Shown: piece by piece, positions 29,155 to 47,035 of the stretch
Layout of the letters: every line of letters starts with the position of its first letter
How positions within the stretch are numbered: the first letter of the stretch is position 1
Assembly (NCBI GenBank): GCA_037481655.1
Contig: JBBFLF010000003.1
Coordinates: 62,001 to 126,000 of the forward strand
Reading direction: 5' to 3'
Source of the DNA: Desulfobaccales bacterium
GTDB lineage: Bacteria; Desulfobacterota; Desulfobaccia; Desulfobaccales; 0-14-0-80-60-11
Length of the DNA stretch: 64,000 nt
Translations under genes and position numbers: made by a program
Notes under the pieces: generated by a model
The model's input: only the letters and a program-made list of their open reading frames with translations
What the model was told of the DNA's origin: nothing
The model's database searches: none

Positions 29155-29184
29155 GTGGCGGGGACGACGGGATTTGAACCCGCG
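29155..29184. repeat. Left attachment repeat (3' end of tRNA-Asp duplicated)
   Basis: A 30-base segment identical to 46551-46580, corresponding to the T-arm, acceptor 3' strand and CCA of tRNA-Asp. It is not a functional tRNA because the sequence diverges right after CGCG. It marks the left boundary of the integrated element. Confidence 0.92.
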
Positions 29185-29214
29185 CCCTTTTTTTCTAAGC
29201 TTCTCATATTCTTT

Positions 29215-30333
29215 TTAAATTTTAATTGGTTTTTCCTCTGCGGACGGCATATGGACGGTCGATATAGAATCGTCTTCGATCATGCCCCTCATGGCTTCCG
29301 TCACTAGTTTCCCATACCTCCTGAAAGCCGTAACCGTTTTGTGGCCCGTGGCCTCCATCACCATGCGCTCGGAGTAACTCGCCATAAGTTTCTGGGTAGC
29401 AAAGGAATGCCTGGTGCCCTGATAGGGGCTGATGTTGAGCCCTGCCGCCCGGGCTGCCTTTGTCCAGGCCCTCCGCACACTGGCGTATGAAAGAGGCCGG
29501 CCTTTCAGGCCGGTAAAGACAAAGCCCGACAAGGCTCGGGGCAGGGCCATAAGTGCCGCCTTGACTTGGGAGTTGAGGGGGATCTTCCTTACATCTCCCT
29601 CCTTGGTATACGGTTTCCATTCCCCCAGGTCCATGCTGGCCTTGATGGTGATGTAAGCCTGGCCCTTGAGATGGACGCAGTCCCAGGTCAGGGCCCTGGC
29701 CTCCCCGAGGCGACACCCCTGCTTCATGCACAAGAGAAACAGCGTCCGGTAAGGCTCCCGGCAGTTGGCCAAGATGCGGGCCTGCTCCTCCGGCGTGAGC
29801 CACTTGGTGTCCGGTTCCCTCTTGGGCACCCTGGGAAACTTGGGCATGACCGCGATGTCCTTGCGGTCCAAGGCTTCGGCCATGAGTTTGTGCAGCGCCC
29901 CCAGGATGTTCGTTACCGTCTTGGCCGACAGGTGTTCTGGGAGTTGGTTCCGGAAATCCTTGATGTGCCCGTCCCGGATGTCCCGGATGGACATCCGGCC
30001 AAAGAAGGGGACGAAATAGCTCCTGGAATACCGTTTGATTTCCCTGAAATAAGCTCGGCTGATGAGCCGCCGCTCCACCTCGGCTTGAAGCCTGGTGAGC
30101 CAAGCGGCCACATAGTTCTCGAACTGAAGTGACCTTATCTCCTTGGTGACGTATTCCTTGGGGTCGAACTTTCCCGCCCCGATCTGATGCCGGATGGTGG
30201 CCAGCAATTGCTCCGCCCTGGCCAACGAGTCCAGCGGGAAACCATACTGGTCGGTGTAAATCTTCTGTCGAGTGCCTTGATACCAGATGTAGATAGAGCA
30301 AGTCAAAAAAAATACCCTCGCATCTTCGAACAA
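29215..30333 (-). CDS. Tyrosine recombinase / phage integrase, N-terminus possibly truncated
   Basis: A 372-aa integrase. The N-terminal arm-binding and core-binding region (FDPKEYV..., FVPFFGRMSIRDIRDGHIKDF) is followed by the catalytic domain. Visible active-site motifs are Arg in GCRLGEARALTW, a Lys in the beta-hairpin, GTRHSFATQK (HxxR), TGHK and the nucleophile Tyr in FRRYGKL. It lies 30 bases inside the left att repeat and reads towards it, as expected for the enzyme that inserted the element. The first dozen or so codons (MFEDARVFFLTC) overlap antisense hsdM sequence and do not look integrase-like. The native start was therefore probably lost at the junction near 30,300. Confidence 0.9.
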   Translation of the reverse strand: MFEDARVFFLTCSIYIWYQGTRQKIYTDQYGFPLDSLARAEQLLATIRHQIGAGKFDPKEYVTKEIRSLQFENYVAAWLTRLQAEVERRLISRAYFREIKRYSRSYFVPFFGRMSIRDIRDGHIKDFRNQLPEHLSAKTVTNILGALHKLMAEALDRKDIAVMPKFPRVPKREPDTKWLTPEEQARILANCREPYRTLFLLCMKQGCRLGEARALTWDCVHLKGQAYITIKASMDLGEWKPYTKEGDVRKIPLNSQVKAALMALPRALSGFVFTGLKGRPLSYASVRRAWTKAARAAGLNISPYQGTRHSFATQKLMASYSERMVMEATGHKTVTAFRRYGKLVTEAMRGMIEDDSISTVHMPSAEEKPIKI

Positions 30334-31587: not shown

Positions 31588-32411
31588 ATTCAAATACCGC
31601 CCAAAAGGCTATTTGTGCGCATCCTGTTGTTTCACCTGTTTTTCCCGAGGAGGAATTCCATTGGACAACGGTTCGCCTCCGAGAAGTGCTTGATCGAGGT
31701 TTGCGACTAGAGGGCAAGGTTTTCGGCATCGAGGGCAGGCATGCAAGGGAGACGCTGAAGCGTTGCAAATGGCCTATAGTTAGCGTCGGAGGCGAAAATG
31801 GTTTGGCGAAGTCCATAACAGTCCCCGGGAGAGTTAAACGTAAGTATCTTTCATCAGACGCCCCGGAGGCTATCGGATTCCTCGGAAGTTCTGAAATGCT
31901 TGATGTCAAACCTGTTCCTTATAAATGGGTTTTTAAAAATGAACCAAAATATCAGCAATTTAAAATCAGAGAAGGATTGGTTCTGATTTCCTGTTCCGGT
32001 ACTATAGGAAATGTCACTTATGTCTCAAAAACCCTTAATAATTTTATGATAAGCCAACATGCTATAAGAATCTCGGCAGACTTCCCCGGTTATATTTATG
32101 CATTTCTGAAGACCAGTATCGGACAAGCTCTTGTCAAAACAAATATGTATGGTGCTGTCGTTAGCGAAATAGAACCACATCACTTTGACAATGTCTTAAT
32201 TCCGGACCCACCACCAATCCTGAAAAAGCGCATCCATGACCTGATTTTGGAATCATATAAATTGCGGGACGAATCCAATGAACTTTTAGACCAAGCTGAA
32301 CAGCTTCTTTACTATGCTCTGAATTTACCTCCCATTGATAATATCAGGCCGCAATATTTCGACCCGTCTTTCGAAGTGCGCAATTTCATTGTGAAATTTG
32401 TCGCAAATTGA
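31581..32411 (+). CDS. hsdS: Type I restriction-modification specificity subunit, N-terminal half (frameshifted hsdS)
   Basis: 276 aa from ATG 31581 (AGGAAGG upstream, inside the hsdM end). It contains a first target-recognition domain with LVLISCSGTIGNVTYVS and NFMISQHAIRIS, then a conserved coiled-coil spacer (LILESYKLRDESNELLDQAEQLLYYALN). The frame ends at FVKFVAN-type codons near 32,400. There, dropping one T of an AAATTTG run would continue directly into the second ORF. It is either a natural half-HsdS that could pair with the next product, or a broken gene. Confidence 0.82.
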   Translation: MVDSNTAQKAICAHPVVSPVFPEEEFHWTTVRLREVLDRGLRLEGKVFGIEGRHARETLKRCKWPIVSVGGENGLAKSITVPGRVKRKYLSSDAPEAIGFLGSSEMLDVKPVPYKWVFKNEPKYQQFKIREGLVLISCSGTIGNVTYVSKTLNNFMISQHAIRISADFPGYIYAFLKTSIGQALVKTNMYGAVVSEIEPHHFDNVLIPDPPPILKKRIHDLILESYKLRDESNELLDQAEQLLYYALNLPPIDNIRPQYFDPSFEVRNFIVKFVAN

Positions 32412-33063
32412 TTGTCGTCTTGGCGCTACCTATCATGTCCCCATTGTGGACGCTATTTTGAAAAAGCTGCGAAAAGAAGCAGTCGAGGTTACCAGCATTA
32501 GCGACCCCCGCATTAGCAAGCGAATTATCTTACCTGGTCGTTTTGCTCGCGTCTACGTCCAGGAAGGACAAGGGACAGTCTTCTTTGGGGGTAAACAAAT
32601 CTTTGAACTTGACCCTTCCAACAAGAAGTATCTGTCGCTAATCCATCATAGCAAAAGAATCAAGGATCAACTCCGGCTCGAAAAGAATATGGTTCTGATC
32701 ACATGTAGCGGAACAATAGGAAGGGTCACGCTGGTGCCTGAGCATTGGGAAGGATGGACTGCAAATCAACATATTATTCGGGTTGTGCCGTCATCCGATG
32801 AAATAGCGGGCTACCTTTATGTCTTCTTAACTAGTGATTATGGGCGTGAACTCATTACCCGTTTCACTTATGGAGCCGTTGTTCATGAGATAGATGACCG
32901 CCATGTAAGCCAGGTAGCCGTTCCTTTGCTCAAAGACAAATATGTTCAGCACGAAATCAATCGCATTGCCCTCGAGGCAAACGAAAAACGAACCCAAGCC
33001 TACTACGCCGAGCAGCAAGCCATACGTATAACCAACGAGGAAGTGGTCCATGCTGAATCATAA
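32398..33063 (+). CDS. hsdS: Type I restriction-modification specificity subunit, C-terminal half (frameshifted hsdS)
   Basis: 221 aa carrying the second target-recognition domain. SQIDCRLGATYHVPIV matches the usual RLDAxYHxP start of the second half. MVLITCSGTIGRVTLV and ANQHIIRV parallel the first TRD, and FTYGAVVHEIDDRHVSQVAVPL parallels MYGAVVSEIEPHHFDNVLIP. It begins at an in-frame TTG inside the end of the first half, a 14-base overlap in another frame. The 229 bases after it are AT-rich with no gene that I can support. Confidence 0.8.
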   Translation: MSQIDCRLGATYHVPIVDAILKKLRKEAVEVTSISDPRISKRIILPGRFARVYVQEGQGTVFFGGKQIFELDPSNKKYLSLIHHSKRIKDQLRLEKNMVLITCSGTIGRVTLVPEHWEGWTANQHIIRVVPSSDEIAGYLYVFLTSDYGRELITRFTYGAVVHEIDDRHVSQVAVPLLKDKYVQHEINRIALEANEKRTQAYYAEQQAIRITNEEVVHAES

Positions 33064-33292: not shown

Positions 33293-33691
33293 CTATTTTT
33301 TTAATAGTTCCAAATCATAAAAACTAATGTCCTCAGATTTCATCACACAGTTCACAATGGCGCTGATGGTTTGATGTCTTAATTCGGCCATTTTTATAAC
33401 ATCACCAACTATGAATAATCTCATCAATTGTTTAGGATTAAAGCGGTAAATAGTGTAAAATTGAACCCAGGTCTTTAATTTAAAAAAGTCTTCATTTGGT
33501 CTTAAAACATATATATTTATTAAATAATGACACCCTTCTCTTTCGGGCCTAGAATTTCGCTGAGAAGTGGTCTTACATGTAAGGATAGGGTCGTCGGGAC
33601 CGGGATTATTGATAATGATGAATAACTTATCGGCTATTCCCCCATCAGAGAATTGATAATTTTTATGTAAAAAGACTGTTCCCCGTTTCAT
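33293..33691 (-). CDS. Uncharacterised partner of the Panacea-domain gene (candidate toxin)
   Basis: A 132-aa basic protein of no recognised family. It begins MKRGTVFLHKNYQFSDGGIADKLFIIIN, a pattern (basic N-terminus, hydrophobic beta-strand, DKLFIII) reminiscent of small beta-barrel toxins of the PemK/MazF type, though that is a weak visual likeness. CKTTSQ and GCHYLINIYVL follow. Its start overlaps the stop of the Panacea-domain gene by 4 bases, the arrangement expected of a toxin-antitoxin pair. The strong AT bias differs from the chromosome. Confidence 0.7.
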   Translation of the reverse strand: MKRGTVFLHKNYQFSDGGIADKLFIIINNPGPDDPILTCKTTSQRNSRPEREGCHYLINIYVLRPNEDFFKLKTWVQFYTIYRFNPKQLMRLFIVGDVIKMAELRHQTISAIVNCVMKSEDISFYDLELLKK

Positions 33692-34272
33692 TTATCAAAT
33701 AATGATTTCACTTCCCGCATTTCATTTATTCTCTCTTTAGCTTCCGCCAAAGATAAAGAATCAACTTTATCATCTATGGCTAATAAATAATCTATTTCAG
33801 CATTTTCACCCTTGGTATTGATCGTCTTATCCCATGGCATATTAGGCAAATGTGAAATATCAGTCATATCATCTGCCTGGGCATCCCTAAAAATTTCTGC
33901 TAATTGCTCCATTAACCTAATTTCTCTTTTACTGAAATAACGCTTATCAAAATTGCATCGCGGAACCATTTTAAAGAATTCAAAGTTTAAGGTCTTTTTT
34001 GGGATATAAATACACTTAGTCAGGTCTTCACCGGGGTTATTAAGTTCAAAGAATAAATCCTTGGGAACCGGCCCCATTTCCCAGGCATAATACTTCAGGC
34101 CGGTTACTGATTTGGCGGTTTGTTTAAAATGCAGAAAATCGAGAAAATAAAGCAACTTGAACAGCTTAAGTTTCCCACAATACCTCGTATTTCTTAGGAA
34201 AAATATGATCGCATGGATCAATTTCTCCCGAGAAAAATCAATCAAAACCGGCTGATTTTCATTAATGCGCAT
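33688..34272 (-). CDS. Panacea/SocA-like (DUF4065) domain protein, candidate antitoxin
   Basis: 194 aa. The N-terminal two-thirds match the Panacea (DUF4065) domain: KLIHAIIFFLRNTRYCGKLKLFKLLYFLDF, then KYYAWEMGPVPKDLFFEL with the hallmark Y-x(3)-GPVP segment. Panacea-domain proteins act as antitoxins for many unrelated toxins, and SocA is a ClpXP adaptor-type antitoxin. It is the first gene of a two-gene minus-strand operon and overlaps its partner by 4 bases (ATGA). Confidence 0.85.
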   Translation of the reverse strand: MRINENQPVLIDFSREKLIHAIIFFLRNTRYCGKLKLFKLLYFLDFLHFKQTAKSVTGLKYYAWEMGPVPKDLFFELNNPGEDLTKCIYIPKKTLNFEFFKMVPRCNFDKRYFSKREIRLMEQLAEIFRDAQADDMTDISHLPNMPWDKTINTKGENAEIDYLLAIDDKVDSLSLAEAKERINEMREVKSLFDK

Positions 34273-34599: not shown

Positions 34600-35331
34600 C
34601 TAAATCGATCTGAGGAATTTTTCAGCCAAGGCCGCAATCTCCTGGGCCCGGTCCAGGGCGCTGATGCACCGGCGGGCGTTTACGAAGTCGGCCTGTCGCT
34701 CGTTGATGAAGTCTATCAGCTTTTTGCCGGTGAATGCCCCCGTGCGGAACCCGTCCACCAGGATAAACAGGGCGATCTCCGGCTCCAGGGCCAGGTCCGG
34801 CTGCCCCACCAAGTCCTTCCTTATTATCCGGGCATACTTCTCATAGTTAGCCCGGCCGGTGATCTGAACATACCCCCTGCCGCGGTAGCGGTAGCCGTCC
34901 CCGGGTTGCGTGTTTCCCAGGTCCCGTCGGCCCTCATACTTCTCGAAATATGACCTGGGCCCCCTCTCATGGATGGGCTGGAATGTCCCCCCTGTCTCCC
35001 ACTCCACCGTGGCCAGCACATAGGCGATCTGCGCCGGCAAGGAGAGGCCCTGCTTACGGCACTCGGCAATGATGGCCGCGATGGTCCCCTCCCGGGTGGA
35101 GAAATCGTAAGGCTGGCCCTCCGGAACGGACGCTCTCGAGTCATCCGGCACTACCTCCAGATACTCCGCCGCTACCCAGCCGACCGTGCCGTCCTCCAGT
35201 TCCACCGGCACCCAGCCTGTGGTGTCCAGGGGGTCAATGACATCCCCCCGGGACAGGGTGCCCTCAATGGGGAAGCGCTTCCCGGGCCCCCCACGAATAT
35301 TTAAGTGGTTAGCCGTTACTCGGAGAGGCAT
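34600..35331 (-). CDS. Phage endolysin: bacterial SH3 domain plus GH19 chitinase-like lysozyme
   Basis: 243 aa. Residues 1-60 form a bacterial SH3 domain ([22 protein letters not shown]...[22 protein letters not shown]) that probably binds the cell wall. The rest is a GH19/chitinase class I-like fold used as a muramidase: [61 protein letters not shown]. The catalytic Glu is likely in VEWETG. ATG 35331 has AAGGTGAG upstream and overlaps the preceding small gene. It is the last gene of a lysis cassette. No signal peptide is present, so export would need a holin. Confidence 0.88.
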
Positions 35332-35515
35332 CACTCACCTTCATGGCTGGCAGTCTCAGCCAGAACCCCACCTCATATTTCCGAGGGAAGGCCAACTCGT
35401 TCACCAGCCCGTCCCGGTCCATTCGGATAGGGCCGCCTTCCATCTCGGGGTGCTCCACCGCGAGGAGGACTGACCCGTCCTCCAGGTGTTTAAGCAGAAG
35501 CACCGGCCTGTCCAT
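35309..35515 (-). CDS. Small phage protein in the lysis cassette
   Basis: 68 aa, starting [26 protein letters not shown] directly after the holin-like stop (TAA-ATG adjacent), with GGAGG as ribosome site. It overlaps the endolysin start by 23 bases. No recognised domain; it is a mixed beta-type small protein ([23 protein letters not shown]). Tight coupling to both neighbours supports a real gene. Confidence 0.7.
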
Positions 35516-35920
35516 TTAACCCTCCGCTTCGCTGGGAGTATTCATCCAGCCCCGCGCTTTCTCCCAGATCACCTTGGCCTGCGCCTGGAGCTTCCCGCTC
35601 TGCCAGGCATTGGCCACCGAGTTGGCGCCGTAAATGCCGGCCACGCTCACCACCGTGGACGTGAGCAGATTCCCCAGGGCCGCCACCATCTCCGGCTTGA
35701 TGAGCCCGAACACCGCCGCCCAGATCACCAGGCTGACATTCCCCACCAGCACCCCCAGACAAAGCCGGGACATGGAGAACTCCCCGGAGCCTGGGTCCGT
35801 AACCAACTCTGACAGGCGATGGGGTTGCGGGGCCTTGAGGGCCGCCCGCACCTCCTCCCGGATGATGCGTTCATACATCCGGCCCAAGGCTTCCACTTCA
35901 CTCACACTCATTTCCTTCAT
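35516..35920 (-). CDS. Holin-like membrane protein
   Basis: 134 aa with a charged N-terminal helix (SEVEALGRMYERIIREEVRAAL), two predicted transmembrane helices (about residues 52-74 LCLGVLVGNVSLVIWAAVFGLI and 77-100 MVAALGNLLTSTVVSVAGIYG) and a basic C-terminal tail. This layout and the position immediately upstream of the endolysin are those of a phage holin; the family itself is not certain. Confidence 0.68.
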   Translation of the reverse strand: MKEMSVSEVEALGRMYERIIREEVRAALKAPQPHRLSELVTDPGSGEFSMSRLCLGVLVGNVSLVIWAAVFGLIKPEMVAALGNLLTSTVVSVAGIYGANSVANAWQSGKLQAQAKVIWEKARGWMNTPSEAEG

Positions 35921-36017: not shown

Positions 36018-36374
36018 TCATCCTTTCCCCCTCACCACGCCCCCGCTGGGGTCATGGTAGTGCCGGTTCAGAGCGTCCCACAGGTCCCGGTTGTCGGCTT
36101 TGAGCTCCTCCCGGCCCTTCTTCCACTCCAGGAACTCAGACCGGGGAATAAACATATCGGTCAGAGAAATACGGCAGGTCATCTGAAACTCTCTGATCCC
36201 CTTTAGCTCCGCCTTGATCTCCGCCAAATCGGCCTGGATATGCTTGAGGTCGCCATTCCCGCCATTTCCGAAGACTTTCTGGCCGTATTTGAGGATGGCC
36301 AGGATGATAACTCCGCCTGCCACGGCCATGGCAAACACCGCTAGGAAGACCGGATGATTGCTGGCCTCCATCAT
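36018..36374 (-). CDS. Small membrane-anchored coiled-coil phage protein
   Basis: 118 aa with one N-terminal transmembrane helix (VFLAVFAMAVAGGVIILAIL) and then a charged helical region (DLKHIQADLAEIKAELKGIREFQ) likely to form a coiled coil. It is similar in design to spanin-like or tail-associated small proteins. Its start overlaps the speD-like stop by 4 bases. The first two codons are both ATG. No family assigned. Confidence 0.65.
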   Translation of the reverse strand: MMEASNHPVFLAVFAMAVAGGVIILAILKYGQKVFGNGGNGDLKHIQADLAEIKAELKGIREFQMTCRISLTDMFIPRSEFLEWKKGREELKADNRDLWDALNRHYHDPSGGVVRGKG

Positions 36375-36820
36375 CCACCCCCCAGCACCCGCCGTTCCCG
36401 GTCCATGTAGCCCTGCACCACCGCCAGATTGCGGGGGAATTCCAGACCGCGGTTGGTCAGCTTCAGGTGATAATGGCCGGCTTTAAACCAGCTCTCAGAG
36501 AACTCCACGGCGGCGGCGATGTCGAATGGCTTGCAACTGAACAGGTCAAGCGCGGCAAAACCCTTCTCTGGCCAGGTATGAATGCTCACATGGCTTTCGG
36601 CAATCATCACCACACCCGAGATGCCGCTGTCCTCATGACCAGGCAAGGGCCTATATTTGAAGACGTAGGGAGGCATGATCTTGGTCATCCCCAGAATATC
36701 CGGGGCGCGGTCCAGAAACTCATAGACCGCATCAAGATCGGCCAACACCATCGGGTCGCACTCATAAAGGTCCACCTTCAGGTGCGGCCCAAGCGCTTCG
36801 GCAAAGTCTGTCGCCCTCAT
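36371..36820 (-). CDS. speD: S-adenosylmethionine decarboxylase proenzyme homologue (SpeD family) on a mobile element
   Basis: 149 aa of the prokaryotic SpeD class 1B. The self-cleavage site that makes the pyruvoyl cofactor is intact: AESHVSIHTWPEKGFAALDLFSC, cleaved between Glu and Ser. The Cys in LFSC is the expected proton donor. Chromosomal SpeD makes decarboxylated AdoMet for spermidine synthesis. Homologues on phages and elsewhere have been shown in some cases to decarboxylate ornithine or arginine instead, so the substrate is open. No speE (spermidine synthase) is adjacent. It overlaps the next gene by 4 bases. Confidence 0.88.
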   Translation of the reverse strand: MRATDFAEALGPHLKVDLYECDPMVLADLDAVYEFLDRAPDILGMTKIMPPYVFKYRPLPGHEDSGISGVVMIAESHVSIHTWPEKGFAALDLFSCKPFDIAAAVEFSESWFKAGHYHLKLTNRGLEFPRNLAVVQGYMDRERRVLGGG

Positions 36821-36839: not shown

Positions 36840-39800
36840 TTACAGCAATGCGCCTATTTCATAGAATTTCTGTGCCTTTTTGCGTTTCTCCTTCTGCATG
36901 AGCATGTCATGTAAGGTTGACGCCTCCTGGTCCTTGACATCCCGGGCCTTTTTCTTAGTCACGAGCAGACCAGCTATCGAGCTCTTATCTTCCTCACCTG
37001 TTCCTTTCGGCTCATAGGTGACTTCACGGCGAGCCTTCCGGAGCAGGGTCTCCACCAGTGTGTCCCGGTCATCGCGGTCCATATCCTGCCACCTGCGCCC
37101 CTGGAACTGCTTGAAAGCCTCATAGGTCTGGCGGGCCGTCAGCTCATAGTAATCTTCCGGTCTCCAAGGCTTGCGGATACCTTGTTCCAGGCGGTAGCTT
37201 GGAGGCATTTTCACCGTAGCCGCGGCCTCCGTGGACATAAAGGCGTTGCCCAGGCGAGCCAGCTCCACCACCCGGGCGTCCAGGGCTTCCAGCTTCACCC
37301 GCTTCTGCTCCGGCGTCAGAGCCTTGCTAGCATAGACCTGCTGGCGCTCTTTTTTGACCTTGCTCAACTCGTCCATAATCTTCCGGGCCACCCGGGCATA
37401 CATGGCCTCGGGGTGCTCCTCCAAAAACTGCTCCAGCCTGGCTTTGTCGCCGGATTGCCAGAGGGTCTTCCAGCCCTGGTCGGCCAGCAAAACCTCCTGA
37501 TAGCGCTCAAAGAAGTCGTTGACGCTCTTGGCTCGCCAGCCCGTCGGCGGCTTGGTGAAGAAGGTGCGGACCCCCCAGACCTGCTGGATTTTGTCTTGGG
37601 CTGGCTGGGGAATATCCTCTACCATCCCTGTCTTGCGTAGGAGGAGGTCGATCCCGGGCAGGAAGTAGTTGGCCCCCAGGCCGCCCGTCCATTGGCGGAT
37701 GAAATGCTCCATTTGCACCGGCGAAATGTCCGTCAGCCTGCCCACGGCCTTGGCGGTCTCCGTGGTCCACGGCTTGGCCCGCAGACCAGCGGGGAGGCGC
37801 TGGAGGCTGATGTCCTCTATGGGCCTACCGCGGAAGAAGTCATAGTTGGCCTTGGCCTCGATGTAGGGCCGGGCTATGGTAGGGATGATCTCCGGGGTGG
37901 CCGCATCCCAGGCGGCGGCCATGGCAGACTTCACGCCCTTGGGGTCCTTGGTGAGCATGGCTTCCACCAGGCGCTCCGCCACGGAACCGAACAGAATGCC
38001 AGCCTCGAAGGGCTTGGGAATCCGTAAGAGGGGAGCATTCTTTCCCAGGGGGAGGTGCCAGAAGTAGTTGCGCTCCCAGTCCTCCAGCTCTTTGTAGCGG
38101 TCGTCATCACGGGCCAAGAGATAAATGAGCACTGATACCCCAGCCAGCATGGCCAGCCGGCGGGCCACCGCCTTGCGGTTAGGGCCGGTGAGTTCCGTGG
38201 CCAGCTTGTCCATGCCCTGGACGGAGGCGTTCCAGAAGGGAATCGTCACGTTCAGGTAGCGCACCGTTGGGTGGCCCCCGGCCCGGCTGAAATCCAAGGT
38301 GGTGCGCCTGGCCTCGTGGATGGCCTCGGCATGGCTCAGGCCCTTTTCCCTGGCCTGTTTGTAGATGGAAAACCTGGTTAGGTTCTCCAGGTAGGCGGAG
38401 GCATAGCGCAGGGCGTGCAGGGGATTGGCGAAGTATTTTACCTGGCTCTCTTTGCCTTTGAGGTAATCCGCCGTGATTTTCTCCGGCTCCACAAAGCTCT
38501 CAGCCAAGGTGGCCATGGGCCCACCGCCGGATTCCCACTGCCGATAGAACTCCATGGTGGCCGGATCTTTGGAAATCAGCAGATAAGCATCCCTAAACCA
38601 CTTGAGTGGGTTGAAGCCGAAACGGGAGAATATCCAGGCTTGGATGATGTCCCGGATTGGGTTGCGGCCCAAGGAGAATTCCGGCACCAGGATGGCCCCG
38701 CTCCGGAGCATGTCCGCCGGAATGCGGGCAATCTGCATCAGAATACCCATCTCGGCCGGCATTAAGTTCTGGGCGGCAGCATAAAGGTCTGGCGGCAGTT
38801 TCAGCCACCGCCGCTTGCCGTCCCGGTAGTAGGGTACGCAGCCGGGCTCCGGCGGCAGGGGCGAACGGGCCCAGACCCGGTTCTGGAAATCCATCAGGCC
38901 GGCTCGGGCGGAAGGCCGGAAGGTCAGTAGGGGCCTCAGCAGGTCGTGCTGGTTCAGGAATTGCTCGAAAACCGCCGTGGTCTCCGGGGCCACCGCCCTG
39001 GCGGTTTCCCGGTCTGTAATGTAGCGGTTGACAAACTCCGCCACCTGCTCTGTCTTCTTCCGGACATAGCGCTTGAAAGATTTGCTGTCAGCTTCGCTGG
39101 CCCGTTGGTCGGCAATGCGCCGGAGCTCCCGCCGCATTTCCGGGGTGCCCCGCTCAATCAAAAGCCCCACAAGGTCATATTGGTCGTCAATGGCATGGCC
39201 GAGTTCGTGAGAGAGGGTCTTCTCACTGGTGGCAAACCGTAGTCTGATTTGGCCAGCAAGCTCTTCAGAAATCAGGCCCTCGGCCACTTCCTCCTTGAGC
39301 ATCCGGCTGAATTCCCCCAGCCTCCGCCCCCGCAGGGTGGCCACCACCTTCACGTCCACCTTGAGTTCCCGGGCCAAGTCCAGAAGCTCCTGGCGAAGCT
39401 GAGCATCAATCTCCTGCTTCTGGTTAAAGTCCACCGGCACATACTTGGCGGGAACCTCGTAGACTTCGGCGTCCTCGTAGGCCTTGCCGGTGATGTACGC
39501 CGCCCGATAGACCTTGTTCCGGGCGTAGGCCCACTGGGCCTTGTAGGCCAGTTCAATCCAGGTCTGCAAGGGGGAGAGAATCTGCTTTTCGGAACCCTTG
39601 ATCTGCTTGATGACGTTGCTGGACACGCCCTGGGCGGCCAGGTGCGCCGCTATGTAGTCATTGGTCTGGTCCAGCAGACGCTTGAAGGGGGCATAAAACT
39701 GGTTTTTCGCCTTGATTGCCTTATAGGTTAATTCGTCAATGAAGCCCACCTGGAGCAGGGGCTGTAGGTTCATCTCATCGGACCACTCCAGCAAGGAAAG

Positions 39801-42800
39801 GCCGGTATCCATCAGCACGCGCAAGTCATCGCCATATTTGCGTGTCAGGGCGGCGAGAACCGCCTTGCTTTCCTCCGGATGGACCCCCTTGATTTCGCCC
39901 GCCATCCGGTTGCCGAACTCCCCGGCCAGCTCAAGGTCGCGCTGGGCCACCAGGAAGACCTCGAAGTCGTCCATCACCTCGTCCACCGTCTGGCCGCGTC
40001 GTTTTGCCAGTTCCCGCAACGGCTCCAGCCGGCGGTTGAAACTGGGGCCCTTGCGAACCAGGTCGTCGCCGGTGAACACCACCTCTTTCAGGTCGGGGTC
40101 AAAGTCCATCCGGTCCTGATAGACATACTCGCCGGTCAGGCCCTGGCGCACCCGGCCTTCCACCCCCCGCATGAAGGAGAGGGCGTTGGTGATGTGTTCC
40201 CCGTGCGGCACCTTGGCCCCGGCCCGGACGGCCCGCTCCGCCAGTCTCTCCCAGGCTGCCCACCGGTCCACCACTTGGTCATAGAACCTTTGGGCCTTTT
40301 CCACCAGCTTGTCTTTGAGACCCTTGGCGGTGGAGACTACATCCCGGGACTCCCGAGGCTCCGTCGGGGCCAGATATTTTTCCCGGTAAGCCTCAATAGC
40401 CTCCTGTTCCTTTGGACGGAGAGAGTACTTGGGGGTCTTGCCTTTTTGCCCGGGAGAAACTATATTTTCAACAGAAAGTTTGCTTTGGCCCTCAGCGTCC
40501 GGGGTTCCTTTCTCCGGCCCTTGCGGAAAGGAGCTTAAAGAGGGGGCTATGCCGGGTTTAGCCGCAACGGGTACGCGCCGTTCCCAAAGCAACTCGAATT
40601 TTTCAATATACTCAGGTCGTCCCAACCACGCAGATTTAATCGTGTAGAAATCTTCTGCTTCTCCCGGGGTCAACTCAATCGCCGCAATTTTGTTTAAGCC
40701 GTTCGGCTTTACCAACAGTAGAGCGGCTCCTCCTCCCTTCCTGATTTGAACATAGTTGGCTGCCACGTCATGAATAAAGGATTCCACATTGGGGTAGCCC
40801 AGTTTTAGAATTTTCTTCTCGTGCCTGGCTTTGATATGGATTAACCCAAAACCGCTCCGGGCTTCCTCTTTTCCCACCTGCAATCTGACAGGTCCGGCTT
40901 GCCTGCGGATGATCTGCGCCGCTTCTTTGTCAACTTCCCCGAAGTTTATGGACCCGTCGGGAGTTTTGACAAAATCCTCCGGCAAGTTACCCGTCTTCTC
41001 ATAATTCGCTGTGCCTCTCACTTTGTAACGGATGGGCTCCCCGAATACGTCCTCCTCCCGGGGCCGCCGCTGCCAGACCTCACCTCTTTCAATCCGTCGG
41101 AATGTGCCCTCCCAGGTGGGCCGGAAGGCCTCCCAAATCTGCCGGAAGAAGTCCAGAATTTTCTGAAAGATGCTGTGGGGTTTCTCAGTCGGCTTCCAGG
41201 TTTCATACGCCCGGGCCGCGGCTTCCCAGTCGCCGAACTCCTTGAGGATGGCCTGGCGCTCCTTGTCGGTCAGCACCAAGTCCGCGGCGGCATGAAACAC
41301 CTCGTGGCGCAGGGTCTGCCGGCCCTCACCTTTGGCCAGGGTGATGATGCCGCCGCCGTCGATGACCTGCCACGCGCCGGCGAGCACATAATCCTCGGCA
41401 TTTTGCTGGATACCCCTGATGTCCTCCTCTGAGTATCCAGCCGCTCGGAGAGCCGCCGCATCCGGCAAGAGAATGTCACCATTCAGGCGAATAGCAATCT
41501 CAAGGCCTTGGTGGGGCAGGAGCACTCGGTAGCCGTCAAAAAATCGCGCCCGTCGAACCTCCAGGCCGGGGAAGGCCGCCTCCACCATCTCCTGGGTGAC
41601 CTTGCCCTCCTCACCGGCAGGGCTTATAATTTCTTTAGCCCCTGCTCCCATGGAGGGACGAAAACGCGTAGGCCCTTCATGCGTAGGCTTGGCGGAACCG
41701 TACACTTCCCCAGGTTCACCAGGGGCTCCTTTCCAGCCGGTCAAAAGCCATGTCTCCCTTTCTCCAAACCGGTATTTGGAGAGAATGGCGACATGGTTTT
41801 CAAAGCCTATTTCCACCCGCTTGCCCTCTTCCGGCCCTGATTCTTTGCGGATATCTCCTTTGGCGATGACCTCCACCATTTTCCGGGCGATGGCCTCGCC
41901 GTCCTCGCCCTCAGCGTTCCGCTTGGCGATGATGTGGGTAACCCCATAGCCGCCCTTGAAATCCTTCTCCGGGTTCCCTGGCTTGCCCCAGTAAAACGAG
42001 ATGTCCCCCAGGTCCTCCCGCCACATGGCTCCCGGCACGTCCGCGTGCTCGGCAATAACCCGCTCCATGGCCTCCCGGCCCCGGCGAATGTTTTCGTCAA
42101 CGGTCAGACGATACTTTGGGGAAGTTTGTTTGGAAGTCCCGTAATATTCCTGCAAAATGTCCTTCCGTATCGGCTTGCCTTGCTCCAAAGCTTTATCTAT
42201 TGCAACGTTGTGCCAGAGATATTCCCTCCCCAAATATTTTTCGACATTCCCGATATTGAATAACCACACATGATTGGCTAGTTTTCCTTCCTTCCTGTTA
42301 CTCGGTATGGCCATATATTCCTGCAAGGCCTTCTGCTTAGCCTTGCTATCTTCGTTACGGACCTCTGGCCACGCTTCAACAGTAAATTCGACTTCTCTGC
42401 CCGCAGGCTCCAGCTTTGTAGGGAAGGTGATTATGGCGTAGGTTTCCCCAGAATCACTGACAAGGCGGGTGAATTTGATAGGGTCGCCTGGCTTGCGCAA
42501 GGACGCCGCAAGAAATTCGCTTGCGGTCATTTCGTGGGGCAGGGGGGCGAACGCTGCCTCGCCGCCCGCTTCATTTAAGACATCTTTGGGGACAGGTTTT
42601 CCGGACAGATATGCCGACCTTACTGCATTAACCTGGTCCTCCTCCCAATTTTTATGTAATTCACCACTACTCCACTTCCTGATGCTCTTGTATTCACCCT
42701 TGGTCATCTGCCAAGGTTCTTTCTCCCTGACTCGATCAAGCCATTCTGTTAATGCTTTCTCTGCGCTCTCCAAATCCCGGAGCCAGCTTCTCGGGATTAC

Positions 42801-43553
42801 CGCATGACTTTCCCAGGTTTTGTCAGCCGCTGGCACTGGTATGATGTGTTTATAATCCACATCCCTATTGGTGACATGAATTCCTTGGGGCGTTCTCCTG
42901 ACAGTGAAACCAATAGAGTTTGCCAACCTCTTGAGCCGTTCATACGCCTGACTCATCTCCTGAGGAGTGGCCCGGTCTGGCCCTTCTTTCTCTTTGGTCT
43001 CTTTTTCACCCTCTTTGATTTCCTTAGTAACCTCCTGTTCTTTCGGGGCATTCTCTGTCTGTTTAGTCCAAAAAGCAACAATCTTCTCATAGACTTGTGC
43101 TGGCACCCAGCCATGGAGAGGATACAGTATCATTTCCGTCCGACCGTCTTTCAGAGAGTCAACTGTCAACCTGCCGAAAGGAAAATAGAAAGTATATGCG
43201 AAGTTGGAGTTTTTACCGGTATCAACATATTTGGTTGGTATGGGTTGGTTCCCCGTGCCATGTTTGATGTCAGAGTCTGGGAACAGGTCAATAGCAGATT
43301 GACTAAAATAATTATATTCACCGGTCTTCTTGAGTTGAATAACCATGCGGGATGGTAATTTCAGTCTTGCGAAATAGAATCCCAATTCCGGTTTCCATTC
43401 CAGCCTTGCGAGTAACCATTTGAATATTTTAGGAACGTTATACTGTTCAGCTCCTTGTGTGATTTCAGCCTTAGTCGGCCATCCTTGAGGTGGTTCTGTG
43501 GCATCCTCTTTTTTTGTACCCACAAATTCATTTTCCTTCTTCCACCCCACCAA
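36840..43553 (-). CDS. Giant phage polyvalent protein (about 2,237 aa) with two HExxH motifs, PBECR-like nuclease and LPD38-like regions
   Basis: A very large multidomain protein of the phage polyvalent class, which are packaged in virions and injected with the DNA. Visible regions: a zinc-protease-like LRHEVFHAAADLV at about residue 750; a probable barnase/EndoU/ColicinE5-like (PBECR) nuclease at about 890-990 (GFGLIHIKARHEKKI ... DFYTIKSAWLG); a second metalloprotease motif LSHELGHAIDDQYD at about 1,450; and an LPD38-like segment at about 1,620-1,790 (LGRNPIRDIIQAW, FSIYKQAREKGLSHAEAI, TLDFSRAGG). A hydrophobic helix (MLAGVSVLIYLLA) and a helical C-terminus follow. The start is uncertain: the frame is open a little above ATG-like 43553 and overlaps the 139-aa ORF in another frame. 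The two may be one protein interrupted by a frameshift. Confidence 0.82.
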   Translation of the reverse strand: MVGWKKENEFVGTKKEDATEPPQGWPTKAEITQGAEQYNVPKIFKWLLARLEWKPELGFYFARLKLPSRMVIQLKKTGEYNYFSQSAIDLFPDSDIKHGTGNQPIPTKYVDTGKNSNFAYTFYFPFGRLTVDSLKDGRTEMILYPLHGWVPAQVYEKIVAFWTKQTENAPKEQEVTKEIKEGEKETKEKEGPDRATPQEMSQAYERLKRLANSIGFTVRRTPQGIHVTNRDVDYKHIIPVPAADKTWESHAVIPRSWLRDLESAEKALTEWLDRVREKEPWQMTKGEYKSIRKWSSGELHKNWEEDQVNAVRSAYLSGKPVPKDVLNEAGGEAAFAPLPHEMTASEFLAASLRKPGDPIKFTRLVSDSGETYAIITFPTKLEPAGREVEFTVEAWPEVRNEDSKAKQKALQEYMAIPSNRKEGKLANHVWLFNIGNVEKYLGREYLWHNVAIDKALEQGKPIRKDILQEYYGTSKQTSPKYRLTVDENIRRGREAMERVIAEHADVPGAMWREDLGDISFYWGKPGNPEKDFKGGYGVTHIIAKRNAEGEDGEAIARKMVEVIAKGDIRKESGPEEGKRVEIGFENHVAILSKYRFGERETWLLTGWKGAPGEPGEVYGSAKPTHEGPTRFRPSMGAGAKEIISPAGEEGKVTQEMVEAAFPGLEVRRARFFDGYRVLLPHQGLEIAIRLNGDILLPDAAALRAAGYSEEDIRGIQQNAEDYVLAGAWQVIDGGGIITLAKGEGRQTLRHEVFHAAADLVLTDKERQAILKEFGDWEAAARAYETWKPTEKPHSIFQKILDFFRQIWEAFRPTWEGTFRRIERGEVWQRRPREEDVFGEPIRYKVRGTANYEKTGNLPEDFVKTPDGSINFGEVDKEAAQIIRRQAGPVRLQVGKEEARSGFGLIHIKARHEKKILKLGYPNVESFIHDVAANYVQIRKGGGAALLLVKPNGLNKIAAIELTPGEAEDFYTIKSAWLGRPEYIEKFELLWERRVPVAAKPGIAPSLSSFPQGPEKGTPDAEGQSKLSVENIVSPGQKGKTPKYSLRPKEQEAIEAYREKYLAPTEPRESRDVVSTAKGLKDKLVEKAQRFYDQVVDRWAAWERLAERAVRAGAKVPHGEHITNALSFMRGVEGRVRQGLTGEYVYQDRMDFDPDLKEVVFTGDDLVRKGPSFNRRLEPLRELAKRRGQTVDEVMDDFEVFLVAQRDLELAGEFGNRMAGEIKGVHPEESKAVLAALTRKYGDDLRVLMDTGLSLLEWSDEMNLQPLLQVGFIDELTYKAIKAKNQFYAPFKRLLDQTNDYIAAHLAAQGVSSNVIKQIKGSEKQILSPLQTWIELAYKAQWAYARNKVYRAAYITGKAYEDAEVYEVPAKYVPVDFNQKQEIDAQLRQELLDLARELKVDVKVVATLRGRRLGEFSRMLKEEVAEGLISEELAGQIRLRFATSEKTLSHELGHAIDDQYDLVGLLIERGTPEMRRELRRIADQRASEADSKSFKRYVRKKTEQVAEFVNRYITDRETARAVAPETTAVFEQFLNQHDLLRPLLTFRPSARAGLMDFQNRVWARSPLPPEPGCVPYYRDGKRRWLKLPPDLYAAAQNLMPAEMGILMQIARIPADMLRSGAILVPEFSLGRNPIRDIIQAWIFSRFGFNPLKWFRDAYLLISKDPATMEFYRQWESGGGPMATLAESFVEPEKITADYLKGKESQVKYFANPLHALRYASAYLENLTRFSIYKQAREKGLSHAEAIHEARRTTLDFSRAGGHPTVRYLNVTIPFWNASVQGMDKLATELTGPNRKAVARRLAMLAGVSVLIYLLARDDDRYKELEDWERNYFWHLPLGKNAPLLRIPKPFEAGILFGSVAERLVEAMLTKDPKGVKSAMAAAWDAATPEIIPTIARPYIEAKANYDFFRGRPIEDISLQRLPAGLRAKPWTTETAKAVGRLTDISPVQMEHFIRQWTGGLGANYFLPGIDLLLRKTGMVEDIPQPAQDKIQQVWGVRTFFTKPPTGWRAKSVNDFFERYQEVLLADQGWKTLWQSGDKARLEQFLEEHPEAMYARVARKIMDELSKVKKERQQVYASKALTPEQKRVKLEALDARVVELARLGNAFMSTEAAATVKMPPSYRLEQGIRKPWRPEDYYELTARQTYEAFKQFQGRRWQDMDRDDRDTLVETLLRKARREVTYEPKGTGEEDKSSIAGLLVTKKKARDVKDQEASTLHDMLMQKEKRKKAQKFYEIGALL

Positions 43554-43780
43554 AATGCTAGATTCTGACGGGAACCGGTGATCTCATGCACGTAAATGTT
43601 ACCGTCGGCATCCTGTTTGATAATGCCGACATGCTTTGTTCCTCCAGCAAGGCCACCCAATACAGGCGCATAGTAGACTACCCTGTCCCCTAAATTGAAA
43701 CCGGCCTCCTGCAAGCGTTTAAGCTCCGCTTCACGGCGAGGGGCCCTCTCAGCCTCAAGCGCATCTCTGTATTCTTTCAC
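43361..43780 (-). CDS. Short phage ORF overlapping the giant protein, probably its N-terminal part
   Basis: 139 codons from GTG 43780, overlapping the upstream gene's stop as GTGA. Residues 1-75 (helix AERAPRREAELKRLQEAG, then GDRVVYYAPVLGGLAGGTKHVGIIKQDADGNIYVHEITGSR) look like a real domain. The last 50 residues look like out-of-frame reading of the giant protein. The most economical view is that the domain belongs to the N-terminus of the 2,237-aa protein and a frameshift lies near 43,545-43,590. A programmed frameshift or two separate genes are alternatives. Confidence 0.55.
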   Translation of the reverse strand: MKEYRDALEAERAPRREAELKRLQEAGFNLGDRVVYYAPVLGGLAGGTKHVGIIKQDADGNIYVHEITGSRQNLAFWWGGRRKMNLWVQKKRMPQNHLKDGRLRLKSHKELNSITFLKYSNGYSQGWNGNRNWDSISQD

Positions 43781-46353
43781 CCTCCGGTTGTGTATCTCTG
43801 TGAGCCGTTTCTGGCCGACAAGTTCTTCAACCTATTGAAGACCTCCTGGAGGCGCACCCGGCTACGGGCATAGGCGTTGAACAGGTGTAGCAGGTCCACC
43901 ACTATTGGGTCTGTCTCACCCAAGAACTTCACCCGAGCCAACCCGTCCTCAAAATTGAGCCCCGCCTCCCGGATGTCCTGAAGGATTTCTGCGGCCTGGG
44001 CCAGTTGGGGGGCTATGCCCACATCGAAGCGGTCACCATTTCGGATCTGCTGCTCCAGCTTGGCCATGCGAGGGGCCACCATCGCCAAGGCGCCGGTAAT
44101 GTTCCGCAGGCGGTCATCGGTTCTTTCTGCCAGCAATTCCAAAGCACCGCTCTTGCCGTAAGCGGCCGCAAAAAGGGCATTGCGGATACGGTTCAGACCA
44201 GCTTGGTTCAGATTGCCGTCAGCGGTATAGTAGTTGGCCAGCTCATTGGGCGAGACAATCCTCTGCATGAAAGCCCTGATGAACGGAGCATTGGCCGTGG
44301 TGTTGATCTCCCCCCGGTCATTGGGTTCAAAAAGCGAGAGGATGTCGGTATGGAGCAGAGCCCGGGCATCATTCTGGGCCTGCTCCATGGGGCTAAAGGC
44401 GGCGGTAGACGCCAGGTTGAACTCCCTTGCAAGGACTACCCTTTCCTCCGGCCTCACCTCTCCTTGCCGCACCCGCACCAGCACAGGCTTCTGTGTCGCC
44501 TTGATAGCCTCCGGGTCCAGGCCGAATTCGGCAGCATGGTCAATCAGCCACTGCTTATACCGCCGCGCCTGTTCCCGATTGGCTTTATAGGCCCGACGTA
44601 GAGCGATGGTGCGGGCATTGCCGGACTCCACAATGCCGTCTGGGCCCACGATGGGAGCACCGTCCGAAGCCAGAGGGTTGTCTCCCAGAAGTTCAGGCCG
44701 CAGGTTGTTCTCTATGCGGCTGATCTGAAGTTCCGAGGCTGCCCGCGTGCGGTCCCGCGGCTGTAACTCCTGAGGGAATGCGGGGTTCTCATTAAGCAGG
44801 TCATCATGGGACGTGACCAGGGCATCCACGTCGAGGACCGCAAAGCGTGTGGGAACCTCCCGGCCGGTAGGGGTGATGGCCACAGATTGCCGGCCTTCGC
44901 TAATTGATTCCGGGGTTGCCTGCGTTTGGCTTGTGGGCTCCGAAGGTTTCGTTATGGGTTCTACCACCAAAACAGGCATAAGTTCGAGCCCCATGGCCTT
45001 GGCCACTAGCGCCCGGTGCCGGCCTTCATGGGTTTTGGTGGCAATATCCAGGATAGGCAAGGGCATTTGCTTGCCCTGTTCAACCCTTGTAGCGTATTTC
45101 CTCACTAGATTTTCATCAAAGGTGGTTCGGCCTGCTTTATCTAAAAATGCGTCTGGGGCCATGTATTCGATGCAACCTACAATCCCCTTTTCTCTGGCGA
45201 AATATTGAGGATTTTTCAAAAGGTTATCGTAGTAGGGCATGTCAGTGGTTTGAAGATTGAATGGTTCCCGAGGAACCTGGGGCCCTCTCGTAGGAGGGGG
45301 CTCCGGCACAATAGTTTCTGGCTCTGGGGCGGGCGGTCTCGGGCCAGCCGCCAACCCGGCAATGGTTCTGTCTGCTCTGGAAAGCAGGTGATAATTCTGC
45401 CGGATCAGCTCATGCAGTTGCCGAGCCGCATCCAGGTCACCCGCATCCTCAACCCTGCGGTAAAGCTCCTCTACCCGGGTTGCCAGAGGCCCCAACCTGC
45501 TTTCGCCAGCCTCCGGCAGGCTGAACAATCTGAGGACCTCCGGTCTGTGTGCGGTAATCAGGCTCTGGACTTCCAGGGCCGCCCGTGGGTCACCCTCTTC
45601 ATCCAACCGCCGGAAGAGTGTTTCCAGCCGGCGCATGAAGTCTGGTTCCCCGCCTGCCAGCCGCTCATCCCTCACCAGGTCCTTGATCTCGCCGGCGCTC
45701 TGCGTCATGGGCTGCGACGCCAGGCGGTGCAGGTGTTCCCAGTTCAGTTGGGTCAAACCTTGCTGATTGGCGGCCAGAAGCTCATGTAACTGCCTGGCTG
45801 CATTTACATCACCGGTCTCTTCCACTTTGCGGTATAGCGCTTCCACCCTGTCCGCTAGAGGCTTTAGTCCCTTGCCAACCGCCGGGTCAGGCGACCGAAA
45901 GGCCTCCACCACCTCAGGCCGGTGGGCCAGAAGCAGGTTGTGAATTTCCTGGGCCGCCCTGGGATCGCCGGTCTCATCCACCATCCGGAAGAGGGCGTCC
46001 AGTCTCTGCACCAAGGGCCGACCCTCCGGAGGCATCATGGGCCGCCCGGTCAGGTCCAGGGGCCGGGCCGTCCTCTCGGGCTCTGTCAAGGGAGCTTCAC
46101 GCAGGAGGTCGGCCTCCAGGTCGCCCATAGGCGGCACCGAAGGCTGCTCCGGCACCGGGATGGGTTCGGCGACGGCGGCGGCAGGAGTCGGCGTAGTCCG
46201 GTAAGTGGGCGAGGTTTCAGGCAGTCTGGCAATCCGTTCAGCTTCCGCCTGTCGAGCCGCTTCTTCAGCTCGGGCTCTGGCCGCGGCCTCCATGGCCGCC
46301 AGCCCTGCCGCCGCGGTGGGGCCGGTACGAGGTGAAGTAATCCCCTCTGGCAA
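43777..46353 (-). CDS. Large phage polyvalent protein with ParB-like and DdrB-ParB-like domains
   Basis: 858 aa from TTG 46353. The N-terminal 100 residues are low complexity, rich in Ala/Glu/Pro. Then come four related repeats of roughly 60-80 residues (LDALFRMVDETGDPRAAQEIH, ALYRKVEETGDVNAARQLHE, TLFRRLDEEGDPRAALEVQ, ELYRRVEDAGDLDAARQLHE). A ParB-like segment follows (HEGRHRALVAKAMGLELMPV). Last is a long DdrB-like ParB-superfamily domain (NNLRPELLGDNPLASDGAPIVGPDG, ESGNARTIALRRAY). Such domains occur in polyvalent proteins of temperate phages and plasmids. The weak TTG start only 200 bases from the right att repeat suggests that the native N-terminus may have been lost. The 198 bases between start and repeat hold nothing recognisable. 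Confidence 0.8.
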   Translation of the reverse strand: MPEGITSPRTGPTAAAGLAAMEAAARARAEEAARQAEAERIARLPETSPTYRTTPTPAAAVAEPIPVPEQPSVPPMGDLEADLLREAPLTEPERTARPLDLTGRPMMPPEGRPLVQRLDALFRMVDETGDPRAAQEIHNLLLAHRPEVVEAFRSPDPAVGKGLKPLADRVEALYRKVEETGDVNAARQLHELLAANQQGLTQLNWEHLHRLASQPMTQSAGEIKDLVRDERLAGGEPDFMRRLETLFRRLDEEGDPRAALEVQSLITAHRPEVLRLFSLPEAGESRLGPLATRVEELYRRVEDAGDLDAARQLHELIRQNYHLLSRADRTIAGLAAGPRPPAPEPETIVPEPPPTRGPQVPREPFNLQTTDMPYYDNLLKNPQYFAREKGIVGCIEYMAPDAFLDKAGRTTFDENLVRKYATRVEQGKQMPLPILDIATKTHEGRHRALVAKAMGLELMPVLVVEPITKPSEPTSQTQATPESISEGRQSVAITPTGREVPTRFAVLDVDALVTSHDDLLNENPAFPQELQPRDRTRAASELQISRIENNLRPELLGDNPLASDGAPIVGPDGIVESGNARTIALRRAYKANREQARRYKQWLIDHAAEFGLDPEAIKATQKPVLVRVRQGEVRPEERVVLAREFNLASTAAFSPMEQAQNDARALLHTDILSLFEPNDRGEINTTANAPFIRAFMQRIVSPNELANYYTADGNLNQAGLNRIRNALFAAAYGKSGALELLAERTDDRLRNITGALAMVAPRMAKLEQQIRNGDRFDVGIAPQLAQAAEILQDIREAGLNFEDGLARVKFLGETDPIVVDLLHLFNAYARSRVRLQEVFNRLKNLSARNGSQRYTTGG

Positions 46354-46550: not shown

Positions 46551-46580
46551 GTGGCGGGGACGACGGGATTTGAACCCGCG
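46551..46580. repeat. Right attachment repeat (3' end of intact tRNA-Asp)
   Basis: A 30-base sequence identical to 29155-29184. Here it forms the T-arm, acceptor strand and CCA of the intact tRNA-Asp, so the element inserted into the tRNA 3' end and regenerated it. Confidence 0.92.
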
Positions 46581-46629
46581 ACCTCCGGCGTGACAGGCCG
46601 GCGTTCTCACCGGGCTGAACTACGTCCCC
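46552..46629 (-). tRNA. tRNA-Asp (anticodon GTC)
   Basis: The acceptor stem GGGGACG pairs with CGTCCCC, the D-arm is GTTCAGCCCGGTGAGAAC, the anticodon arm is GCCGG-CCTGTCA-CGCCGG with anticodon GTC, the T-loop is GGTTCAAATCCC, the discriminator is G and CCA is encoded. It serves as the integration site of the adjacent element. Confidence 0.95.
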
Positions 46630-46635
46630 GTTTTT

Positions 46636-47035
46636 TTAGTCCAAAGCCCAAAGTCCAAAGCCCAAGGTCCAAAGTCCAAGGTCCAAGGTCCAAAGTCTGA
46701 AGCCCAACTTCCAAAGTCTTACCGTTTCAAGAGGCCATAAATGGGTGAATTAAATTCTTTTGTCCTGAAATGGCCGCACACCACATTCCCTCTTCTAAAA
46801 CCCCCTCAGCCCTTGGCCCCGACTTTGGACCATGGACCATGGACTGTCATTAATACACCTGGGAAATTCTCCTTTCCAAAGCAGCCTCAGCCCTTGGCCC
46901 CGACTTTGGACCTTGGACCATGGACCTTGGACCTTGGACTGTCATTAATACACCTGAAATTCTCCTTTCCAAAGCAGCCTCAGCCCTTGGCCCCGACTTT
47001 GGACCTTGGACCTTGGACCTTGGACTATCATTAAT
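46636..47035. repeat. Tandem heptamer and roughly 95-bp repeats between tRNA-Asp and lon
   Basis: Bases 46,640-46,710 are built of imperfect heptamers (CCAAAGT/CCAAGGT variants). From about 46,800 to 47,035 a longer unit recurs about three times: CAGCCCTTGGCCCCGACTT, then GGACC(T/A)TGG heptamers, then GACTGTCATTAATACACCT and a CTCCTTTCCAAAGCAGCCT stretch. The heptamers in the two parts are reverse complements of each other, so the block can fold on itself. It has a 97-codon open frame but the translation is just the repeat. It fills the 400-bp gap before lon. Confidence 0.85.

Follow-up and report, generated by a model that had tools for sequence, protein, structure and literature searches.

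A DarB/DdrB-type polyvalent protein in three reading frames, truncated and with an exchanged middle module, probably a remnant in a tRNA-Asp-integrated element of a Desulfobaccales bacterium

Introduction

Polyvalent proteins have been proposed to be injected, to counter restriction and to be processed by their own zincins (Iyer et al. 2017, PMC5512222). About 36% carry one to five zincin domains, and about 8% of them more than one; a zincin combines an HExxH helix with a Glu on a later helix, and the DdrB-ParB and LPD38 domains are phage-only (PMC5512222). The jhp1044-type proteins of Helicobacter join DdrB-ParB with PBECR domains and display extensive domain mosaicism (PMC5512222). Among the DarB-like giants of Bcep22-like phages, JC1 gp69 (4,515 aa) was detected in purified virions (PMC9144972). 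An N-terminal signal targets P1 DarB to the phage capsid (PMC9024508).

Here, we analyse a 64,000-nt stretch of a Desulfobaccales contig, referred to as the window, for which an initial annotation made from the sequence described a giant polyvalent virion protein with two HExxH sites and an N-terminal domain in a different frame. We compared the locus with relatives from the same bacterial family as the window genome and consider it probable that the window holds the remnant of a DarB/DdrB-type polyvalent protein, truncated, module-swapped and frame-broken, in a tRNA-Asp prophage without virion genes (Table 1).

Results

One polyvalent protein divided among three frames

The 2,237-codon frame begins with TTG and contains zero internal stops. 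As annotated, it carries HEVFH and HELGH, starting at exactly residues 750 and 1449, and two or more HExxH motifs appeared in 0 of 2,000 shuffles of the protein. Profile searches recovered both the PBECR nuclease and the LPD38-like region that had been read in this frame as Pfam matches (PBECR1, PF18809, residues 509-608; LPD38, PF18857, residues 1817-1981). The 858-aa ORF directly upstream, which had been overlooked, matches ddrB-ParB (Pfam, E 4.7e-38), and with DdrB-ParB, PBECR1 and LPD38 all above Pfam cut-offs across two ORFs the description as a giant polyvalent protein holds. The 139-aa ORF indeed overlaps the long ORF by exactly 193 nt; it had been taken for the N-terminal domain and is instead the middle piece, the N-terminal part being the 858-aa ORF.

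Table 1 Features of the element and of the polyvalent protein, in window coordinates.
Feature	Position	Strand	Detail
Attachment repeat, copy of the tRNA-Asp 3' end, distal element end	29155..29188		34-nt direct repeat
Tyrosine integrase adjoining attachment repeat	29215..30333	-	Pfam Phage_integrase E 2.3e-19
SH3/GH19 endolysin	34600..35334	-	PHROG endolysin E 1.9e-35
134-aa ORF of lysis region, holin-like position	35516..35920	-	No family match
SpeD-like AdoMet decarboxylase, directly downstream of giant gene	36371..36820	-	Pfam AdoMet_dc E 3.4e-30
C-terminal ORF of polyvalent protein	36840..43553	-	Residues 649-2179 81% identical to G006:C50
Conserved C-terminal scaffold	37224..40376	-	Residues 1060-2110, interrupted by zincin 2
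LPD38 domain	37611..38105	-	Pfam PF18857 E 8.4e-41
HELGH, zincin-like site 2	39195..39209	-	Residues 1449-1453; invariant H, G, H
Predicted second PBECR-like nuclease domain	40419..40913	-	Residues 881-1045, between HExxH sites; absent from initial annotation
HEVFH, zincin-like site 1	41292..41306	-	Residues 750-754
Module without counterpart in close relatives	41634..43830	-	139-aa ORF and long-ORF residues 1-640
PBECR1 nuclease domain	41730..42029	-	Pfam PF18809 E 1.9e-12
139-aa ORF, middle piece of polyvalent protein	43361..43780	-	No family match
A_AAA_AAG heptamer, dnaX-like, 139-aa frame	43508..43514	-	Candidate -1 slippery site, disfavoured
Frame break 2, 139-aa ORF to long ORF	43545..43585	-	Long frame opens 43,583
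N-terminal remaining piece, 858 aa	43777..46353	-	DdrB-ParB domain at 44467-44868
Frame break 1, 858-aa ORF to 139-aa frame	43800..43840	-	Coding signal switch
Attachment repeat inside tRNA-Asp	46551..46584		97% identical to 29155-29188
tRNA-Asp, integration site	46552..46629	-	

In the relatives, DdrB-ParB and LPD38 share one ORF. Their uninterrupted giant ORFs (4,361 codons in G006:C50, 5,154 codons stop-to-stop in G006:C29 and 4,603 codons in G019:C24) contain, in the same order, counterparts of the 858-aa ORF and of the last two thirds of the 2,237-aa ORF. Residues 1-469 and 462-845 of the 858-aa ORF align with residues 453-912 and 994-1377 of the G006:C29 protein, while the stretch of the 2,237-aa ORF listed in Table 1 corresponds to residues 2811-4346 of the G006:C50 protein; identity is 80% to G006:C29 over residues 643-2179 and 63% to G019 over residues 1053-2182. 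Since the single ORF of the relatives matches the outer pieces, the 858-, 139- and 2,237-codon ORFs appear to be parts of one protein. Judged by this homology, two frame breaks have spread one DarB-type polyvalent protein over three frames in the window: the relatives form the single polypeptide expected of polyvalent proteins, whereas the window copy does not.

The three pieces could instead be separate, translationally coupled genes, the long ORF beginning at an internal GTG or TTG. Such coupling would fit the 4-nt GTGA (43,777-43,780) by which the end of the 858-aa ORF overlaps the 139-aa ORF, and the ORF that holds the LPD38 part has just about 1,200 codons in many homologues, so splits do occur in the wider family. 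However, every closest relative has one fused ORF, the codon signal of the 139-aa frame starts upstream of the GTG of the 139-aa ORF, and a Shine-Dalgarno-like GGAGG abuts that GTG, which makes coupled genes quite unlikely.

The single broken gene also appears to have lost its beginning. Homology to the relatives begins with the very first codon of the 858-aa ORF, at a point corresponding to ~450 residues into the G006:C29 protein; a stop precedes this codon, and no clear ribosome-binding site was seen. By this alignment, the window copy lacks the first ~450 residues and the 858-aa ORF is 5'-truncated. The G006 genome carries two related giant genes (C29, 5,154 codons; C50, 4,361 codons), of which the C50 copy is without the first ~420 residues and has a GTG start after an AAGGA site.

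A helicase-type middle exchanged for an unrelated module

Between the conserved outer parts, the window copy and its relatives differ. The relatives carry AAA_34 helicase domains at the position of the module: the middle of G006:C50 matches AAA_34 (E 8.8e-112), Helicase_C_4 (E 5e-84) and, below cut-off, a methylase, and the middle of G006:C29 is of the same kind (82.7% identity over 3,090 residues). For the 139-aa ORF and residues 1-470 of the long ORF, searches that were order-, class- and phylum-wide and covered all searched collections returned no homologue, so that ~750 window residues are without any homologue apart from the PBECR1 domain. The 5' part of the module has a GC content of 44-51%, versus ~60% in its surroundings. 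Sequence comparison thus points to a module exchange, in which the helicase-type middle gave way to an AT-richer module that is unrelated to it and carries PBECR1. In the PBECR1 homologues, WG, G, W and T are invariant, and the domain shows the BECR-core pattern of a His in the N-terminal helix (THII) and a terminal LLTG.

Two frame breaks at and within the module

The frameshift that had been called for near 43,545-43,590 corresponds to an observed change of frame, and the codon signal prefers the long frame from about 43,553 on; a single shift is insufficient, as a second break is needed at about 43,840-43,800, where homology to the relatives also stops. Both breaks fall where no homologue exists. 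Of the causes that had been offered for the break (programmed frameshifting, mutation or sequencing error), mutation or error is the likelier.

The 139-aa frame reaches the long frame by a -1 step, and A_AAA_AAG (43,514-43,508), the only such heptamer, is a perfect match and lies in the right frame and direction for a -1 shift that would join the two. Codon shuffles give this heptamer in 4.4% of cases and some heptamer in 37%. Reading of the 139-aa frame as far as the heptamer predicts a long-frame score of no more than 1.75 bits (99th percentile) for the 16 preceding codons, yet these favour the long frame by +19.9 bits; a base model trained on the module gives the same sign more weakly (+6.2 versus a 99th percentile of 3.8). 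These scores are noisy, in that one later 20-codon segment, necessarily long-frame, scores the opposite way in an AT-richer stretch. The long-frame coding signal before the heptamer implies that the frame probably changes upstream of it, which disfavours a programmed shift there. The RNA downstream of the heptamer, folded from 11 nt past it (43,497-43,415), is not unusually structured (z -0.45), and a shift at the heptamer would leave the first break unsolved. We therefore regard programmed frameshifting as extremely unlikely.

The C-terminal 1,050 codons of the long ORF are under purifying selection (dN/dS 0.13 versus G006:C50), and the window copy has 10 unique changes versus 7, 6 and 24 in the relatives, with no marked excess. 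An open 2,237-codon ORF under purifying selection is unusual for an old relic, and these values imply that the breaks are recent, or errors. If both breaks were sequencing or assembly errors, the true gene would be one long frame with the swapped module, in keeping with the strong purifying selection, the otherwise perfectly open frame, the unbroken giant genes of the relatives and the shared direction of the two shifts. On the other hand, the two breaks lie within about 300 nt of each other, yet several host genes of the window (UPF0182, P-type ATPase and Lon) match their profiles from end to end without a break, and errors cannot explain the other truncations, at the 5' end of the giant gene and in HsdM. 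Errors at both breaks are accordingly unlikely, albeit worth bearing in mind. The most probable cause of both breaks, which fall at or in the swapped module, is ordinary mutation, or possibly sequence error, and not programming.

Zincin-like sites, a second nuclease domain and the C-terminal scaffold

The two HExxH sites of the long ORF differ in how widely they are conserved, site 2 being broadly kept and site 1 kept in close relatives only. Site 2 reads HE[LVIA]GH in 17 of 18 homologous loci plus the window, down to about 20-28% identity. Glu 1476, 1502 and 1506 are invariant in its homologues, and helices are predicted both at the HExxH and at the downstream Glu 1502/1506, in agreement with the zincin pattern (PMC5512222). 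Three close relatives have the domain of site 1, where the motif reads HEVFH, HEVFH and HEAFH and a nearby Glu is kept; in a distant relative it is degenerate (HEVFE). Neither site has a Pfam zincin match above cut-off, a PDB profile search with zincin 2 returned only chance HLA matches, and the profiles of zincin 1 and zincin 2 show no detectable kinship beyond the motif. The structure model of zincin 1 and the second nuclease domain was poor (pLDDT 45), and its Foldseek matches were meaningless. We therefore call site 2 zincin-like, a fold assignment suggested by its motif conservation. In a same-genus relative (L014, G008:C65), the site reads HNLGH and the second nuclease domain is absent; this copy also has the most unique changes (24), and its zincin 2 looks inactive.

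Residues 881-1045 probably form a second, predicted PBECR-like nuclease domain. Its HI-motif His is invariant and a Ser/Thr near the end occurs in all six aligned sequences; it aligns with the PBECR1 profile at E 1.7e-4, though with a probability of only 49.5%, and has no Pfam match.

The C-terminal scaffold was found in 62 genome loci and at least 80 viral loci with an alignment as query; scans of viral and genome contigs with a single protein query returned nothing. An AlphaFold model of the scaffold (pLDDT 82, pTM 0.72) aligns along its entire length with phage LPD proteins (TM 0.6-0.7) and gave no significant match in the PDB. Its two halves (residues 1060-1400 and 1560-2110) flank zincin 2. 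The spacing between the halves is at most about 130 residues, and mostly <80, in 43 homologues that gave no zincin match, compared with about 160 where the domain is inserted. The C-terminal scaffold is thus continuous apart from zincin 2, whose insertion is optional.

A tRNA-Asp-integrated element without recognised virion genes

The giant gene lies in an element of 17.4 kb between the tRNA-Asp attachment repeats, flanked by host genes for a TPR protein, a P-type ATPase and UPF0182 on one side and by lon on the other. Between tRNA-Asp and lon, a tandem array of 14-nt units and a 70-nt repeat present three times occupy 46638-46714 and 46782-47025. From the tRNA, the order is giant gene, SpeD-like gene, small ORFs, lysin, Panacea ORF, type I methylase/specificity genes and integrase. 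The integrase is 82% identical to that of G006:C50, and homology to the integrase end of G006:C50 stops exactly at the distal repeat. The lysin is 62% identical to that of the G006:C29 prophage, and homologues of the 134-aa ORF occur near the giant gene in G006:C29, G008 and G019; from its position, this ORF may encode the holin.

SpeD-like homologues lie beside the giant gene also at L047 (G118; 18516-18914) and L119 (14007-14441), and this polyamine gene seems to travel with the giant phage gene. At 33688-34272, a Panacea (SocA-like antitoxin) ORF sits beside a 132-aa ORF without a family match, possibly as a toxin-antitoxin pair. At 30187-33063, a type I methylase ORF is accompanied by a specificity part split over two overlapping ORFs, and no restriction subunit was seen with them. 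This methylase (HsdM) ORF starts within antisense integrase sequence and is thus 5'-truncated. In the related prophage (L011, 4158-11329), the integrase-to-lysin interval contains, as identified by eye, a DNA cytosine methylase, a Vsr-like gene and other restriction/repair-type genes, and is likely a defence hotspot.

Of the components of an intact prophage, an integrase and attachment sites are present; terminase, portal, capsid and tail genes were not recognised, and no head, portal or terminase match was obtained among the scanned ORFs of the element. Neither the head-closure gene of the related prophage nor the 416 N-terminal residues of its giant protein occur anywhere in the window genome. 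The virion-gene neighbourhood is missing for the window giant and present for that of G006:C29, so that the annotation as a virion protein finds no support for the window copy. The truncated 858-aa ORF and the truncated HsdM add further damage that favours decay, and the element is a prophage remnant, a relic without recognised virion genes.

Two functional readings were weighed against decay. A capsid-less satellite that depends on a helper phage and keeps the giant injected protein as a working part would account for the retained integrase, attachment repeats and lysin and for purifying selection on the giant gene, and the G006:C50 giant also lacks its first ~420 residues alongside the same integrase type. 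We nevertheless consider it very unlikely: the window gene is 5'-truncated without a clear start and has two frame breaks, HsdM is truncated, the left part of G006:C50 differs and shows no tRNA-Asp, and no packaging or capsid-remodelling gene was recognised. There is likewise only a very slim chance of a functional split, in which a satellite-like element exchanged the middle for a new nuclease module and has its separate or recoded pieces packaged by a helper phage.

Discussion

The window protein belongs to a known class, and its activities would follow from those of its class. The intact relatives encode a single chain of about 4,400-5,150 residues which, by analogy with DarB-like homologues, would be loaded into the phage head and enter the next cell with the DNA. 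There, the N-terminal DdrB-ParB part and the helicase part may protect the DNA from restriction, BECR-type domains may cut RNA, and zincin-like domains may cleave the chain into working units, or cleave host proteins. The intact relatives agree with the scheme of injection, antirestriction and zincin processing proposed for this class (PMC5512222), which already includes the self-processing suggested by the initial annotation. Packaging, injection, antirestriction, RNase and protease activities are thus presumed for this class. The remnant in the window would have arisen through loss of the first ~450 residues, a swap of the middle and two breaks, leaving the 858-, 139- and 2,237-codon ORFs. 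Because the window copy has neither N-terminus nor helicase part, and no virion genes nearby, its delivery on its own is unlikely.

We regard the locus as for the most part an unremarkable relic whose swapped-in segment is of interest, and as an example of modular evolution. It provides a clean before/after comparison of one polyvalent protein across a whole-module exchange, and it highlights a zincin family and a BECR-like domain for which Pfam has no model.

Among known systems, jhp1044-type proteins of Helicobacter match the window protein in the PBECR1 region only and, unlike it, showed no LPD38 scaffold match in their records. Phage-type polyvalent proteins share with it the combination of DdrB-ParB, PBECR1, LPD38 and zincin-like domains in a very large chain; the window copy differs in being three-frame, 5'-truncated and away from virion genes, and in having zincin and second nuclease domains without a Pfam model. 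The DarB-like Bcep22-like giants are related through the C-terminus, where JC1 gp69 is homologous to the window protein (E 4e-9), and in both the gene precedes the lysis module. Neither the methylase nor the SF2 helicase of the P1/Bcep22 DarB-like proteins occurs in the window ORFs; the relatives carry AAA_34/Helicase_C_4 and the weak methylase match, whereas the window copy is without the helicase/methylase middle and the N-terminus. The most similar system is the G006:C29 prophage (MAG Yes49-14), which has the same integrase type, a homologous lysin and a homologous giant gene whose product is 80% identical to the window protein over the C-terminal 1,540 residues, and in which, unlike in the window, an unbroken frame of 5,154 codons encodes the giant protein next to head-closure and virion genes.
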